The notes under the pieces are model-generated. The model was not told the origin of the DNA. It saw nothing but the letters and a program-made list of their open reading frames with translations, and ran no database searches. From a virus, in IMG/VR virus record IMGVR_UViG_3300018080_001685, positions 1-29,549 of that record: a DNA stretch of 29,549 nucleotides; one strand, given 5' to 3'. The position numbers were made by a program, and so were the translations under genes. Of this stretch, positions 1 through 29,549 are shown in pieces (position 1 is the stretch's first letter; each line of letters begins with the position of its first letter).

Positions 1-428
1 GTGTATTCGTACGGGTCAAAGCTGTAGTCTGGCTTTCTCCAGTAAGTGCTTATCGTGCTAACTGGGTTCTCGATCATGTACGGCACCTCTGCCCATTCGC
101 AGAACTCAGCGGCTGTAGCAAACAGGTTTATGCTGCGAGCCAGGCTCCGCAGACCTTTTCCCTTGAACCACCTCGACCCACTTACGGCAAGGTGATCGCA
201 CGGCGGGAATGCTGACACAAACTCAATCCGATCCCTGTCGAACGGTGCCACCCAAGGCATGGACAGGTCGTAGTTGACTTTGAAAAAGCCATCCTGATCA
301 GTGACTCCACTGTTCGATATGGCCTGTGGATGCTGGTTGTCGACTATCCAGCACTCGTAGCCTGCGTCTCGCCACGGAATAAGCATATTCCCAGTAAGGT
401 CAAACAGGCTAACTGCAATCGGTCTCAT
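1..428 (-). CDS. DNA cytosine-C5 methyltransferase, N-terminal part (runs off left edge)
   Basis: About 142 residues read on the reverse strand from ATG at 428 and stay open to the window edge, so the C-terminal part is missing here. The start reads SLFDLTGNM (residues 7-15), a variant of the SAM-binding motif I (DLFxGxG). FPPC at 74-77 is the catalytic PC motif IV, and ENP at 120-122 matches motif VI (ENV in most Dcm-type enzymes). Such enzymes transfer a methyl group from S-adenosylmethionine to carbon 5 of cytosine; in phages they usually protect the genome from host restriction. The ATG overlaps the stop of the MazG-like gene (ATGA), so the two are translationally coupled. The ENP variant and the sequence around FPPCDHLAVSG suggest the small phage branch of the family. 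The target sequence cannot be read from this. Confidence 0.8.
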   Translation of the reverse strand, partial: MRPIAVSLFDLTGNMLIPWRDAGYECWIVDNQHPQAISNSGVTDQDGFFKVNYDLSMPWVAPFDRDRIEFVSAFPPCDHLAVSGSRWFKGKGLRSLARSINLFATAAEFCEWAEVPYMIENPVSTISTYWRKPDYSFDPYEY

Positions 429-877
429 GCCAGCTTCCCATGCTTGTGTTGCCGTCCTTCGTTGACGAGCATCTTGTCAGCGATGACGTGGTCGATCGGT
501 GCGCCGTCGATGCGATTGTCGAGGTGCAGAATGCGAATGATGGTGTCGGCCAGTTCCGCTTTCTGACCGCTGTGCTCGGGGCACTTGTCGTCGGGGCCAG
601 GCTTCCGAACCGCTTCCACGAACTCGCCCAGTTCCGAGATGATGAGTCCGACTTGAGCTAGCGTGAAGAGGCGTTCGATGGTTGCGTGCGCTCGGCGTGA
701 GGAATCTGTGGTCGTACCGTTATGGGCTAGCCTAACAGCGCAATCGACGACTTCGTGCAACTCGTCAACGTCCTCCTCGAAACCCTTCTCACGTGCCCAT
801 TCGCGGATGGAGTCACCAGTAACAGCGTTGAGGCCGAATTTCTTGATCATGTCGTATTTGTCTTGACGTGTCGTCAC
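425..877 (-). CDS. MazG-like nucleotide pyrophosphohydrolase
   Basis: This protein of about 150 residues has an all-alpha NTP-pyrophosphohydrolase core in its C-terminal half. SELGE gives the ExxE pair (E82, E85, counted from the GTG start) and ELAD gives the ExxD pair (E108, D111). Together they form the metal-binding signature of the MazG/dUTPase-like superfamily. The later K..N..R..HGK stretch (about 135-148) is also typical of phage MazG-like proteins. The expected reaction is hydrolysis of (d)NTPs to the monophosphate and pyrophosphate; proposed phage roles are nucleotide-pool cleaning or lowering ppGpp, which is not shown here. The N-terminal 75 residues are extra and unassigned. I chose GTG at 877 because AGGAG lies 8 bases upstream and it gives a GTGA overlap with the preceding gene; TTG at 880 is the alternative. 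Confidence 0.75.
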   Translation of the reverse strand: MTTRQDKYDMIKKFGLNAVTGDSIREWAREKGFEEDVDELHEVVDCAVRLAHNGTTTDSSRRAHATIERLFTLAQVGLIISELGEFVEAVRKPGPDDKCPEHSGQKAELADTIIRILHLDNRIDGAPIDHVIADKMLVNEGRQHKHGKLA

Positions 878-1218
878 CAATCTATCTCCTCGTCTGGAAG
901 TAGCAGCCCTGACACCTGTTCTGTGATGCCAAGGTTGCGGTCTGCGTAAAAGTTATGAAAACGAATAGCACGGTACTGTTCGTGCCACTTAGGATGCTTT
1001 GCTCGCCATTTGTCCTCGTCAGCTTCACCCCCGTTGTGATGCAATCCGATCAATTTCCCTGGGCACTTCTCTTCACGGAACCGTGGGTAGTGCTGGATTT
1101 CGTAGGTGTACTCAGCTTCTTTCCCTCCATAGATGGCCGTGACCTCGACCCAGAGAAACCAGTAATCAGGCCACTCGGTGACATCCATGACGTAACACTC
1201 GGTATTAACTACGCTCAC
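874..1218 (-). CDS. Hypothetical phage protein, aromatic- and charge-rich
   Basis: Unrecognised protein of 114 residues, rich in Trp, Tyr, His and Glu, with no membrane segment or known catalytic motif. An open frame extends upstream to 1323, but it would overlap the neighbouring gene almost completely. The GTG at 1218 has GAGGA 8 bases upstream, inside the end of that neighbour, and leaves only a 14-base overlap, so I use it. The gene sits between another small unknown and the MazG-like gene in a co-directional, overlapping reverse cluster that probably makes one early transcript. The alternating aromatic and charged residues suggest a small globular cytoplasmic protein. No function is proposed. 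Confidence 0.6.
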   Translation of the reverse strand: MSVVNTECYVMDVTEWPDYWFLWVEVTAIYGGKEAEYTYEIQHYPRFREEKCPGKLIGLHHNGGEADEDKWRAKHPKWHEQYRAIRFHNFYADRNLGITEQVSGLLLPDEEIDW

Positions 1219-1444
1219 TGTCGATTTCCTCGTCAGCCCCTTCCGTGACGTGCTTTCGAAAAATCTGGTTAAAAACAGTTGCTGATCCACAACCTCGGAC
1301 GCGATTCGCAGTTGCCAAGTCATTCGGCACCCACGAAATGCAGTGATACTCGACGTACGTCTGCCACGGCTCGTGAATTACGGACTCGATGCGCACGATC
1401 ATGTGCGGGTCGGTACGGTCGCGATAGAGTTGTCGAGGTTTCAT
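1205..1444 (-). CDS. Small hypothetical phage protein, first gene of left reverse cluster
   Basis: A 79-residue protein starting MKPRQLYRDR and ending in an acidic tail (EEIDSERS). No family is recognised. It is the promoter-proximal member of the left reverse-strand cluster, and its 3' end contains the ribosome binding site and start of the next gene. The ATG at 1444 has only a weak purine stretch upstream (GAGAAAC about 10 bases away). It lies across a 128-bp non-coding gap from the forward block, so it probably belongs to an early or lysogenic transcript that diverges from the late genes. The charged composition suggests a soluble regulator-size protein, but no helix-turn-helix is clear. 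Confidence 0.55.
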   Translation of the reverse strand: MKPRQLYRDRTDPHMIVRIESVIHEPWQTYVEYHCISWVPNDLATANRVRGCGSATVFNQIFRKHVTEGADEEIDSERS

Positions 1445-2204: not shown

Positions 2205-2623
2205 AGCAATTCATCAATGGGCTCTGTGTCGGGCTGCTCCTTGCGAGCGTTCTCGAAAACGGCCTGCCCAACATTATTCCGATCCCGGACATCATCCCCA
2301 GTAGCGCACCGTTCGAGACGGATGTGCCGCGCTGCCTGGCGATCTATGAGTCTGGCGAGACGCATACACTTCCAGCGTCCAAGCTCGACATCTTGACCGG
2401 GACCAAGTTCCGTCGCTGGTGCTCCGAGAATGGCTGGGAGTTCAAGAGCTGGGACGAGGAAATCACCATCGAGCGTGCCGACGAATCGTGGAAGAAAGCG
2501 CTGCAGGTGGAACGTACCGATACGCCATGGCTCGTGTTCTCCAATGGCAACACAGGGGGATCTGTGCCGCTACCGAACGATGCCGATGCTGCGATTGAGC
2601 TTTTGAGGGAGCACACGAAATGA
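2201..2623 (+). CDS. Exported or membrane-anchored thioredoxin-like protein (tentative)
   Basis: A 140-residue protein with a hydrophobic N-terminal segment (about 5-20, INGLCVGLLLASVL) that should direct it to or across the inner membrane, followed by a Pro/Ile-rich linker. The body contains a W-C-SENGW stretch and then TPWLVFSNGNTGGSVPLP, which reads like the cis-Pro strand/turn region of a thioredoxin fold. The CxxC active site is absent, so thioredoxin-like redox activity is doubtful and the fold call is weak. AGGAGGAAGG precedes the ATG, which overlaps the previous stop (ATGA). Its own stop overlaps the papain-like protease gene in the same way, which points to joint action in the envelope. 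Confidence 0.55.
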   Translation: MKQFINGLCVGLLLASVLENGLPNIIPIPDIIPSSAPFETDVPRCLAIYESGETHTLPASKLDILTGTKFRRWCSENGWEFKSWDEEITIERADESWKKALQVERTDTPWLVFSNGNTGGSVPLPNDADAAIELLREHTK

Positions 2624-3444
2624 GTTTCAGGAGCTACATCCCCAGCAAAATGAAGGTGATCGGTGACCACAATGCTGATGTTGTGGTGCGAGCCTACGCC
2701 GAGAATCCAGAGTATGGTCGCGGTTTGGACCCAGACTGCGCTGAGCCACTTGAGGGATTTGGCACATCGTTCAACGCCATGATTCCACGGGAAGAGTGGA
2801 ACGAACGTATCGAGGAGATGGAACGCAAGAAGATGCGCCTACCTGACCTCGTAGATGATCTCAAGGCTCGTGGTGAGTGGGATGGCCCGCGTGTGCTTAA
2901 CCAAAGTCGCACAAATTACTGTTGGATTAATTCGCCAGTCCACGCTGTGATGCTCACACGCGCTAAGCAAGGCGAGAAGTATGTTCCGCTATCTCCAGCT
3001 TCTGTCGGCGCCAAAATTAAAAACTTCCGCAACGTCGGAGGTTGGGGAAGCGAGGGTCTGAAGTACATCCGCGAGCATGGTATTGTTCCGCATGAGTTGT
3101 GGCCCGCCAATGCCATTGACCGCAGGTACGACAATAGCGAGTCAGATGCCGCTAGAAAGCATTTCAAGTGTGATGAGTGGTGGCTGCTACAGCCCCGCAA
3201 TCTCGACCAGATGATGAGTTGTCTGCTTCAGAACATTCCAGTCTGCATTGGTCTGAATTGGTGGTCTCATGAAGTGACGGCAGTGGCTCCGGCAAGGGTC
3301 GGTGAGAACTCCTATGGAATAATTTTTGACAATTCCTGGGGAGAGGGTTATGGGGACAAGGGCCGTGGGTTGCTAAGAGATTCAAAAATGCTACCTGACG
3401 ACGCGGTGGCACCCCGGACAGTAACAGCGAGTGATTGGAAATAG
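2620..3444 (+). CDS. Papain-like (C1 family) cysteine protease
   Basis: In this 274-residue protein the papain-family catalytic set can be read in order: Q95 (oxyanion hole) six residues before C101 in NQSRTNYCW, as in papain QGSCGSCW; H217 in SHEV; and N238 in DNSWGEGYGDKG, matching the papain NSWG motif. Between them GGWGSEGLKYIREHGI resembles the family GGxxxxAFxYIxxNGG segment. The first 90 residues, charged and helical, could be a propeptide or targeting region. There is no signal peptide. C1 peptidases cleave peptide bonds with a Cys-His pair. In a lysis-like gene cluster the substrate could be an envelope protein layer, a virion protein or a host protein; none can be chosen from sequence. 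It is coupled by ATGA to the upstream gene. Confidence 0.85.
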   Translation: MSFRSYIPSKMKVIGDHNADVVVRAYAENPEYGRGLDPDCAEPLEGFGTSFNAMIPREEWNERIEEMERKKMRLPDLVDDLKARGEWDGPRVLNQSRTNYCWINSPVHAVMLTRAKQGEKYVPLSPASVGAKIKNFRNVGGWGSEGLKYIREHGIVPHELWPANAIDRRYDNSESDAARKHFKCDEWWLLQPRNLDQMMSCLLQNIPVCIGLNWWSHEVTAVAPARVGENSYGIIFDNSWGEGYGDKGRGLLRDSKMLPDDAVAPRTVTASDWK

Positions 3445-26797: not shown

Positions 26798-27328
26798 ATG
26801 AAGCTATTCATCACGGGTCCAGGGCGACACGGCAAAGACACAGTTGCTGGGTTTGTGCGGCGCCGCACAGGGTTGACGTTCGAAAGCAGCAGTCACTTCG
26901 TAGCCCGCAAGGCTGTGGTGCCTTACCTGGCCAAGATCGGGATTCACTACCGAACGTTTGACGAGTGCTACGCCGATCGCGTCAACAATCGCATGCACTG
27001 GCGCAGGGCCATTGAAATCTACAACACTCCAGATGTGACGCGAATGTCTCGGGAGTTGTTTGATCAGTATGACATCTATGTCGGAATCAGGAAGCGTGAC
27101 GAGTTCCTCAAGGCCAAGGAATTTGCAGATTTGTCAATTTGGGTTGACGCTTCGATTCGCATCTCAAAGCAAGACCCCAGCCTAGATATCCTTCCAGGTG
27201 ACTGCGACATCAGGATAGACAACAACGGAACACTGGAGGAACTAGAGGCGAAAGTTTATCGCCTTTGCGACACATTCAGCAACTTGCCATCCAAGGGAGA
27301 ACTGGACTTATGCTACACTGACAAGTAG
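26798..27328 (+). CDS. Deoxynucleotide monophosphate kinase-like protein
   Basis: A 176-residue P-loop protein with Walker A at residues 7-15 (GPGRHGKDT), the GKD[T/S] form typical of phage dNMP kinases of the T4 gp1 type, then a RRRTG stretch and later VDASIRIS. The expected reaction is phosphoryl transfer from ATP to a deoxynucleoside monophosphate to feed viral DNA synthesis. The C-terminal half is more divergent, so the substrate cannot be read and a general P-loop kinase role is the safe claim. The ATG is adjacent to the previous stop (TAA then ATG). Placement at the end of the tail block and before a phosphoesterase suggests an accessory metabolic cassette. Confidence 0.65.
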   Translation: MKLFITGPGRHGKDTVAGFVRRRTGLTFESSSHFVARKAVVPYLAKIGIHYRTFDECYADRVNNRMHWRRAIEIYNTPDVTRMSRELFDQYDIYVGIRKRDEFLKAKEFADLSIWVDASIRISKQDPSLDILPGDCDIRIDNNGTLEELEAKVYRLCDTFSNLPSKGELDLCYTDK

Positions 27329-27351
27329 CACAACTGCTGCAAAGGATTGTA

Positions 27352-28026
27352 ATGAGTCGAGTCTTGGCGATCGGAGACGTTCACTGCCCTGGCATGCTGC
27401 CAGATTACCCAGAATTCCTTTCAGATATCTACAAGCAGTGGAACTTGGACAAGGTTGTCGTCATCGGAGACCTTGTTGACTGGCACGCAATCAACTTCCA
27501 CGGAAAGCATTCCGAGACACCTGGAGTCAGAGAGGAAGTCGAGCAGGCCCGCAAGCAGATTGCAGAGATCAAGAAGAGGTTTCCCAAGGCAACTTGGATG
27601 CTTGGCAATCATGATGTGTTGCCGAAGCGTAGAGCCGACGAGGCTGGGCTACCATCCAACATCCTGAAGAGTGAGAAGGAATACTGGGATCTCAAGGGAT
27701 GGAAGGTTGTGGAGCGTTATGGATCACACCTTATTGACGGAGTGAGATACAGCCACGGCGAGACCGGCGACGGCGGCAAAGAGGCAGCTCTCAAGCAGGC
27801 GGTGAACTGTGGCCGTTCCACAGTCATCGGGCACTACCACCAAACAGCTGGTGTGCGATGGGCGGCAAATGAGGACAGGCGGATGTTCGGCCTGTCGACA
27901 GGTTGCGGGATGGACTGGAAACGACTTCAGTTTCAGTACGGTCGCAAGTTCAAAGATAAACCACTGATTGGATGCGGTGTGATCCTCGACGGTCAGTACG
28001 CTTACTGGGAGCCGATGCAATTATGA
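27352..28026 (+). CDS. Calcineurin-like metallophosphoesterase
   Basis: The 224-residue protein has the complete metallophosphoesterase set: GDVH (D9, H11), GDLVDW (D40), GNHD (N86, H87), SHG (H135) and GHYH (H161, H163). These bind two metal ions and the catalytic water. The substrate could be nucleotide, phosphoprotein, RNA end or signalling molecule; the sequence does not decide. AAAGGAT precedes the ATG. It is coupled to the next gene by ATGA and follows the dNMP kinase. In phages such enzymes are often accessory. Full-length and intact; no signal peptide, so it is cytoplasmic. Confidence 0.85.
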   Translation: MSRVLAIGDVHCPGMLPDYPEFLSDIYKQWNLDKVVVIGDLVDWHAINFHGKHSETPGVREEVEQARKQIAEIKKRFPKATWMLGNHDVLPKRRADEAGLPSNILKSEKEYWDLKGWKVVERYGSHLIDGVRYSHGETGDGGKEAALKQAVNCGRSTVIGHYHQTAGVRWAANEDRRMFGLSTGCGMDWKRLQFQYGRKFKDKPLIGCGVILDGQYAYWEPMQL

Positions 28027-28352: not shown

Positions 28353-28883
28353 ATGGCAATCATCCTCCCGAAACAGAACCTGCTGATTGTCGAGTTTCCC
28401 AGGACTGCGACAACGTGGCTCAGGCGCACGCTGAGAGCACTGAATGTGCCGCACCACATTCCTGTCGCAGAGCCTGGCAAGTGCCCTAGACACAGCCCTG
28501 TGGCCTCCTACGAGTGGTCTGGCGACACAGTTGTTTTCTACCGCAGGCCGAAAGATTGGATCGAGAGCATGTGGCGACATCACCGTGGGCGCTGGTATCG
28601 CAAGATGTACAACAACATCGAATACGGTTTCGAGTTCATGATGCCGTTCGATCCACTATTCGAGACGTGGATTCAACGCTTCACAATAGATGATGTCGAG
28701 GCGTACTACCGCAAGATGATGAATGGAGTTGGAACTGTTGTTCCATTCGAGGGTGTGCAGGACTGGCTGGCCGACACGATTAAAAAGCATGTGCCGCGCG
28801 AGCGAGTCAATGCTAGCGTTAAGATTGCTTGTGATTGGCAGACGACTCCAGTATCTCGTTCATGTAATCCTCGACAGCCATAG
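28353..28883 (+). CDS. Sulfotransferase-like protein
   Basis: The 176-residue protein reads PRTATTWL at 16-23, matching the 5'-phosphosulfate (PAPS) binding loop PKSGTTWL. R64 and S72 in YRRPKDWIESMW fit the 3'-phosphate motif R-x7-S. Between lie short strands and helices of a sulfotransferase core, and later the segment GVGTVVPFEGVQDWLA resembles the motif preceding the PAPS-binding helix. The enzyme would use PAPS to sulfate a hydroxyl or amine, possibly a surface glycan or a small molecule. It is shorter than standard cytosolic sulfotransferases (about 290), like many phage versions. It starts adjacent to the previous stop; its C-terminal 65 bases overlap the reverse gene at 28819. The substrate is not predictable. 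Confidence 0.65.
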   Translation: MAIILPKQNLLIVEFPRTATTWLRRTLRALNVPHHIPVAEPGKCPRHSPVASYEWSGDTVVFYRRPKDWIESMWRHHRGRWYRKMYNNIEYGFEFMMPFDPLFETWIQRFTIDDVEAYYRKMMNGVGTVVPFEGVQDWLADTIKKHVPRERVNASVKIACDWQTTPVSRSCNPRQP

Positions 28884-29022
28884 CGAGGACCGTGTCAGGT
28901 TTCTCGCCACGAGCAGAGGCGTCGGCGTGCTCCTGGATCTCGTCGATGGTGGCGTAGATTCCAGTCTCTTCAAGTCGCCTTTTGATCTGGCGACACATCT
29001 GGCGTGATACGATGTTGTTCAC
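28819..29022 (-). CDS. Small hypothetical protein beside the attachment region
   Basis: In this 67-residue reverse-strand protein, the GTG start at 29022 has GGAGGG 8 bases upstream. The sequence (MNNIVSRQMCRQIKRRLEET) is helical and basic at the N-terminus and acidic toward the end (AMAVEDYMNEILE), with one Cys. It converges on and overlaps the sulfotransferase gene by 65 bases, an unusual but tolerable arrangement. Its position next to the repeats and tRNA fragment suggests a recombination or lysogeny control role (e.g. an excision or repressor partner), although no helix-turn-helix is evident. A TTGACC on the same strand (complement of 29077-29082) is a possible -35 element. Confidence 0.5.
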   Translation of the reverse strand: MNNIVSRQMCRQIKRRLEETGIYATIDEIQEHADASARGEKPDTVLAMAVEDYMNEILESSANHKQS

Positions 29023-29043
29023 TGCAATTTCCCTCCAATACCG

Positions 29044-29064
29044 AGCAGCTAAAAAGCAGCTAAC
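29044..29064 (+). repeat. Arm-type direct repeat pair, left of core
   Basis: AGCAGCTAA at 29044-29052 and AGCAGCTAAC at 29055-29064 start 11 bases apart, about one helical turn. The same pair with the same 11-base phase occurs on the other side of the tRNA segment. Such paired repeats are typical of integrase arm-binding sites. Confidence 0.75.
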
Positions 29065-29073
29065 AGAGTAAGA

Positions 29074-29096
29074 TTTTGGTCAACTTTTGACGAAAA
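29074..29096. repeat. 10-bp dyad with 3-bp centre
   Basis: TTTTGGTCAA (29074-29083) and TTGACGAAAA (29087-29096) are complementary in 9 of 10 positions around CTT. The dyad lies upstream of the small reverse gene at 28819 and overlaps its possible -35, so it could be a repressor or recombination protein site. A weak terminator is unlikely without a U-tract. Confidence 0.6.
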
Positions 29097-29097
29097 G

Positions 29098-29159
29098 GTT
29101 AGCAGAAGTGCAACGCGAGTCAAGCAATTTTGCTTGTGATCGGTTACATTTCTGCTAAC
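29098..29159. repeat. 62-bp interrupted palindrome with nested inner palindrome
   Basis: GTTAGCAGAAGTG (29098-29110) pairs with CATTTCTGCTAAC (29147-29159) in 12 of 13 positions. CAAGCAATTTTGCTTG (29121-29136) is an inner palindrome. Both share exactly the same axis between 29128 and 29129, and AAC/GTT bases between them also pair. The outer arms share GCTAAC with the arm repeats. It abuts the tRNA-derived core, so it may bind integrase or an accessory factor. Confidence 0.7.
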
Positions 29160-29164
29160 ACTCG

Positions 29165-29211
29165 TCTGTCTTACACACAGAAGGCCGTCGGTTCGAGTCC
29201 GACTGTGACCA
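29165..29211 (+). other. 3' half of tRNA-Val(UAC), probable attachment core
   Basis: The anticodon stem TCTGT/ACAGA encloses a 7-base loop CTTACAC with anticodon TAC at 29172-29174 (valine). The T-arm GTCGG-TTCGAGT-CCGAC and 3' acceptor TGTGACC plus discriminator A (29211) follow; CCA is not encoded. The D-arm and normal 5' half are absent, so it is not a working tRNA. A tRNA 3' half reconstitutes the host gene after integration, the usual reason phages carry one. Confidence 0.8.
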
Positions 29212-29260
29212 CTTGATATCAAAGGACTTACGACAAATTCAAAATCGCGCAAATCGCAAA

Positions 29261-29281
29261 AGCAGCTAACGAGCAGCTAAC
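29261..29281 (+). repeat. Arm-type direct repeat pair, right of core
   Basis: AGCAGCTAAC occurs at 29261-29270 and 29272-29281, again 11 bases apart, mirroring the left pair about 200 bases away. The last repeat ends one base before the stop codon of the excisionase-like gene, so gene and site are compactly joined. Confidence 0.75.
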
Positions 29282-29533
29282 TCATTCACCTACCTTTGGG
29301 ATTTTGGACCACCAGTCAGCAGCGTCGATGAAGCCAGACTTATGTGAAGCGCCCCACACGATCACATCCCATGATTTCAGCCAGACACGCACTGTCGCCT
29401 CATTGTGGCCGATGATAGCCGCCCACTGTTTAATAGAATACTTGCCAGTGTGCGGTACTGGCATTGTTGACATTACACCTTGAGTGTGAAATTCTTTCAC
29501 GTTCTCACTTGACGCACCTTGAGTGCTCTCCAT
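29282..29533 (-). CDS. Excisionase-like helix-turn-helix protein
   Basis: The 83-residue reverse-strand protein starts at ATG 29533 with AGGAG 7 bases upstream (29540-29544 on this strand). After a disordered N-terminus of about 30 residues, it reads YSIKQWAAIIGHNEATVRVW followed by LKSWDVIVWGASHKSGFIDAADWWSKIP, the winged helix-turn-helix pattern of Xis/AlpA/MerR-like DNA-binding proteins (helix, turn G-H-N-E, recognition helix, then a wing). It ends at the second repeat pair of the attachment region. The likely role is a recombination directionality factor bending attP/attR DNA. An alternative is a small transcription regulator. The integrase is expected to the right, outside the window. 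Confidence 0.7.
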   Translation of the reverse strand: MESTQGASSENVKEFHTQGVMSTMPVPHTGKYSIKQWAAIIGHNEATVRVWLKSWDVIVWGASHKSGFIDAADWWSKIPKVGE

Positions 29534-29549
29534 AACATGACTCCTGTCA

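Follow-up and report, generated by a model that had tools for sequence, protein, structure and literature searches.

The 3′ half of a tRNA gene, flanked on each side by arm-type repeats, is the anatomy of the phage attachment site (attP) in tyrosine integrase systems that use tRNA genes as targets. Published attP sites are about 250 bp in size, and crossover is centred on the anticodon in about half of tRNA islands (PMC4383910); the common core is usually 30–45 bp in length and includes the tRNA 3′ half (PMC10865867). In mycobacteriophage Pixie (cluster K3), whose target is a tRNA-Lys gene, the arrangement of the arm sites has been described (PMC3203893), and the repeat search used in the present work, when applied to the Pixie attP (JF937104), finds direct TTGGGTACAC sites as a pair on the left and a group of three on the right of the tRNA-Lys fragment, with a sixth site inverted on the left, a spacing of 12–14 bp and a total span of 292 bp. 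Two pairs of 11-bp repeats have been described in the attP of CrimD (cluster K1), which uses a tmRNA gene (PMC3203893), and the same search recovers one of these pairs, its members being 11 bp apart. Phages of cluster J, for example Omega, use a tRNA-Leu gene and possess a 44-bp common core, the left end of which lies in the anticodon loop, together with direct pairs of 10-bp arm sites (PMC3706429).

The site described here is of this familiar type and occurs in a poorly related phage. It was found in IMG/VR record IMGVR_UViG_3300018080_001685, an incomplete linear record that was analysed as a single window of 29,549 nucleotides, where it occupies a 259-bp intergenic gap (29023–29281) between two leftward ORFs at 28819–29022 and 29282–29548. 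The G+C content of the gap is 44%, versus 51–55%, and the confinement of all its elements to 259 bp fits the published attP size of approximately 250 bp. With a probability of nearly 0.9, the gap constitutes the attP of a temperate phage whose heterobivalent tyrosine integrase is encoded past the right end of the contig.

At the center of the gap lies the 3′ half of a tRNA-Val(UAC) (29165–29211, plus strand; TCTGTCTTACACACAGAAGGCCGTCGGTTCGAGTCCGACTGTGACCA), consisting of the anticodon arm, variable loop, T-arm, 3′ acceptor strand and A73. The anticodon stem is formed by five pairs (29165–29169 with 29177–29181) and closes the loop CTTACAC, with the anticodon TAC at 29172–29174; it is followed by an AGGCC variable loop, a T-arm (29187–29203) with five stem pairs and the loop TTCGAGT, and the acceptor strand TGTGACC (29204–29210), with A73 at 29211. 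An anticodon of UAC and an A at position 73 are features of valine tRNAs. When the 5′ part is removed, the 3′ half alone scores 37.1 bits against the Rfam tRNA model (RF00005), for which the gathering cut-off is 29 bits, and the 47-bp length is in keeping with published cores of 30–45 bp. No D-arm can form, as there is neither a D-stem nor a GG at the D-loop position; the Rfam alignment skips 13 nt there, and ARAGORN reports zero tRNAs anywhere in the window. Thus, the complete cloverleaf of a phage-encoded tRNA gene is missing, and what is present is a 3′ fragment without the complete gene, as found in tRNA-targeting attP sites. The initial annotation had described a tRNA-Val 3′ half lacking its D-arm, and this description holds. 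It had also named an intact tRNA in the phage genome as evidence against an attP; neither ARAGORN nor Rfam detects one in the contig, which fits an attP.

One detail of the tRNA had escaped that description. A 5′ acceptor-like strand does exist, since the sequence GGTTACA (29142–29148) pairs with the 3′ acceptor strand at all seven positions and lies at approximately the expected distance from it. Approximately 0.12% of the 7-mers in the window would pair in this way, which amounts to a chance of about 1% over the nine allowed offsets. With this strand included (29142–29211), the Rfam score rises to 41.8 bits over model positions 1–71, from acceptor to acceptor, and it is conceivable that the phage encodes a functional D-armless tRNA-Val or tRNA-like RNA. 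Such a gene is nonetheless highly improbable. The 5′ part is worth a mere 4.7 bits, the D-stem and the D-loop GG are absent as noted above, folding of the strand is no better than that of shuffled sequences (z −0.93), and the paired repeats on either side would be left unexplained. Moreover, six of the seven GGTTACA bases belong to one copy of a phage inverted repeat (GTTACATTTCTGCTAAC), the other copy of which lies 45 bp away, and this mimic within the repeat leads Rfam to call a “full-length” tRNA. The resemblance to an acceptor strand is probably accidental, the simplest reading being that a phage protein has its site there. A combined version, in which the site serves both as attP and as a tRNA-like element, is very unlikely: the repeat at the D-arm position would close the acceptor stem, and the phage, while unintegrated, could produce a tRNA-like RNA lacking a D-arm or preserve the remains of a phage tRNA-Val that was formerly complete.

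The second component of the attP anatomy is provided by four copies of a 10-bp repeat, AGCAGCTAAC, all on the plus strand and arranged as two direct pairs, one on each side of the core. On the left, the putative integrase arm-type sites P1 (AGCAGCTAAA, 29044–29053; a 9/10 match to the repeat) and P2 (29055–29064; exact) are followed at some distance by the core, and on the right lie the putative arm-type sites P3 (29261–29270) and P4 (29272–29281), both exact. In each pair the repeats are 11 bp apart from start to start, leaving a 1-nt gap, and there are no further exact AGCAGCTAAC copies elsewhere in the window. When the 259-base region was dinucleotide-shuffled 200 times, with families defined as 10-mers having up to one mismatch, the largest family never reached four copies and reached three copies once. 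The repeat search and the shuffles, with the Pixie and CrimD attP sites as controls, thus bear out the earlier claim of two repeat pairs with 11-base spacing flanking the core.

The placement of these repeats also bears on what else the gap could be. Direct repeats phased at 11 bp, accompanied by a palindrome and inverted repeat within a gap of lower G+C content (44%, as given above), could also be the elements of an iteron-type replication origin or of an operator region in which a tRNA remnant is present by chance. There are just four copies, however, split into pairs with the tRNA half between them, which is the arrangement of known attP sites, and an origin or operator would give the tRNA half no role; this explanation is accordingly judged highly unlikely. 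A tRNA half also remains at the ends of an integrated prophage, and the locus might be taken for an attL or attR in which one side is host DNA. One side of such a junction would be devoid of phage arm sites, whereas the same arm repeats occur here on both sides of the core and phage genes run up to the core on the left, making a prophage end extremely unlikely. A search for the paired arm-repeat pattern in other viral contigs returned candidates that were rejected, as they possess repeats of 11-bp units without a tRNA; in seven contigs (L001–L007), the fit to the pattern came from tandem 11-bp units, mostly AACCAGCAGCT.

Two additional elements, both overlooked in the initial annotation, lie on the left side of the core. 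An inverted pair, GTTRCAYTTCTGCTAAC, has its first copy on the minus strand at 29098–29114 (GTTGCACTTCTGCTAAC) and its second on the plus strand at 29143–29159, at the position of the would-be D-arm, where it supplies most of the mock acceptor strand; the two copies are identical at 15 of 17 positions. Between the left arm pair and this inverted repeat sits a 23-bp palindrome, TTTTGGTCAACTTTTGACGAAAA (29074–29096), in which 10-bp arms with one mismatch surround a short spacer (TTTTGGTCAA-CTT-TTGACGAAAA), and which may be a site for an excision factor or a repressor. Both elements are probably further binding sites for the integrase, an excisionase or a regulator.

In its overall layout, the locus is best read as resembling the attP sites of Pixie and CrimD. 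As in Pixie, a 47-bp core made of a tRNA 3′ half is flanked by directly oriented 10-bp arm sites, a pair to the left and a set to the right; the left side also has a further site in inverted orientation and is bordered by a small leftward gene. The two differ in the tRNA used, in the arm sequence, in the spacing (12–14 bp in Pixie versus 11 bp here), in Pixie’s three right-hand sites and in the adjacent integrase gene seen in Pixie, and no sequence kinship with the Pixie attP was found. With CrimD the locus shares two pairs of arm repeats around a core and the 11-bp phase of the pair that was recovered, but in CrimD the right pair is inverted relative to the left and the core is a 24-bp piece of tmRNA. 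The cluster J sites are similar in core length, in having the left end of the core within the anticodon loop, and in their direct pairs of 10-bp arm sites; they differ in the tRNA and the arm consensus, and identity of the core to attB is proven in cluster J, whereas it is predicted here. Together, the anatomy and the direct comparison with the Pixie attP strongly support the identity of the site as first proposed.

On the attP reading, an integrase supplied from beyond the right contig end would engage, through its N-terminal domain, the AGCAGCTAAC arm sites of both pairs and, through its catalytic domain, the core in the anticodon arm. Strand exchange with a host tRNA-Val(UAC) gene would then take place at or near the anticodon loop (29170–29176). 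In this scheme the host would retain the 5′ half of the tRNA, the phage stretch from 29165 to A73 would serve as the 3′ half, and one of the junctions would thereby carry a rebuilt tRNA. The initial annotation had looked to an integrase gene near the site as a check, and none was found: the contig, which extends 268 bp past the last repeat on the right, contains neither a tyrosine nor a serine recombinase, and PHROG scans gave no match to either among the ORFs tested.

The left border of the site is a 67-aa ORF with a GTG start on the minus strand (28819–29022) that belongs to no family. The right-hand ORF (29282–29548, minus strand), of 83 aa from an ATG at 29533 and possibly longer, likewise has no significant family or fold match and has a weak helix-turn-helix look. 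Its fold model is of low confidence (pLDDT 58) and includes two HTH-like helices; structure matches of this model were discarded as not significant, the model being too weak. Excisionases are in many cases small proteins with a winged helix, highly diverse in sequence and usually encoded near the integrase (PMC11963761), and the right-hand ORF is a candidate excisionase, as a guess from its position.

A link to a host with a matching tRNA-Val(UAC) gene is a prediction of the attP reading and is the part of the earlier proposal that failed to find a match. With exact and relaxed patterns, in which the named bases had to match exactly such that a host departing from them at a few positions would escape detection, the core (29165–29211) was absent from the GTDB 220 species genomes, and under the same rule for named bases it was also absent from IMG/VR. 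Phages and plasmids gave partial matches to the tRNA half, with no record covering 80% of the query, and, among the matches listed, those with an annotation are tRNA-Pro genes, a result that general similarity between tRNAs would produce. The missing exact match does not refute an attP, because published phage cores differ from attB at several bases, as in Boilgate, where five mismatches occur within 43 bp (PMC10865867). It would also be compatible with the tRNA-dependent lysogeny known from actinobacteriophages (PMC10865867), in which the core would not rebuild the host tRNA. Those attP sites share approximately 10 bp with a tRNA, however, while here the whole 3′ half is present with its anticodon and T-arm pairing intact, and the contig is without a phage tRNA gene; this variant is exceedingly improbable. 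For the attP reading preferred here, the 47-base core is a bait that could identify the host, once a tRNA-Val(UAC) gene that matches it, or a read across a junction, is found. A Planctomycetota host could be guessed from the style of the proteins and a papain-like gene and is not claimed.

The phage that carries the site is probably temperate and is without detectable relatives of its terminase and portal in a tblastn search of 50,697 phage records, and without close relatives of its terminase and capsid in IMG/VR. Nameable proteins include the terminase large subunit (weak PHROG and Pfam matches), the portal and the major capsid protein. Searches of phages and IMG/VR found no relative with a site of this kind. 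Protein comparison with IMG/VR turned up a single relative, contig L009, which has a metallophosphoesterase (77%) and a kinase-like protein (58%) in common with the phage but little more; it was set aside as a source of a related attP, with few shared genes and no attP-like sequence seen. In the window, a dNMP kinase-like gene and a calcineurin-like phosphoesterase gene are adjacent (26798–28026, plus strand), and their order and orientation differ in L009, where the products are 58% and 77% identical. A product with a sulfotransferase-like look (28353–28883, plus strand; FPRTATTWLR start) has no family match, and its naming is a guess from sequence alone. At the left end, leftward genes (3–1323, minus strand) encode a DNA methyltransferase truncated at the end of the contig, a MazG-like pyrophosphatase and a product of unknown function. 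Finally, a predicted papain-family cysteine protease (2620–3444, plus strand; Pfam Peptidase_C1, 23.2 bits, above the cut-off) is encoded among the rightward phage genes.
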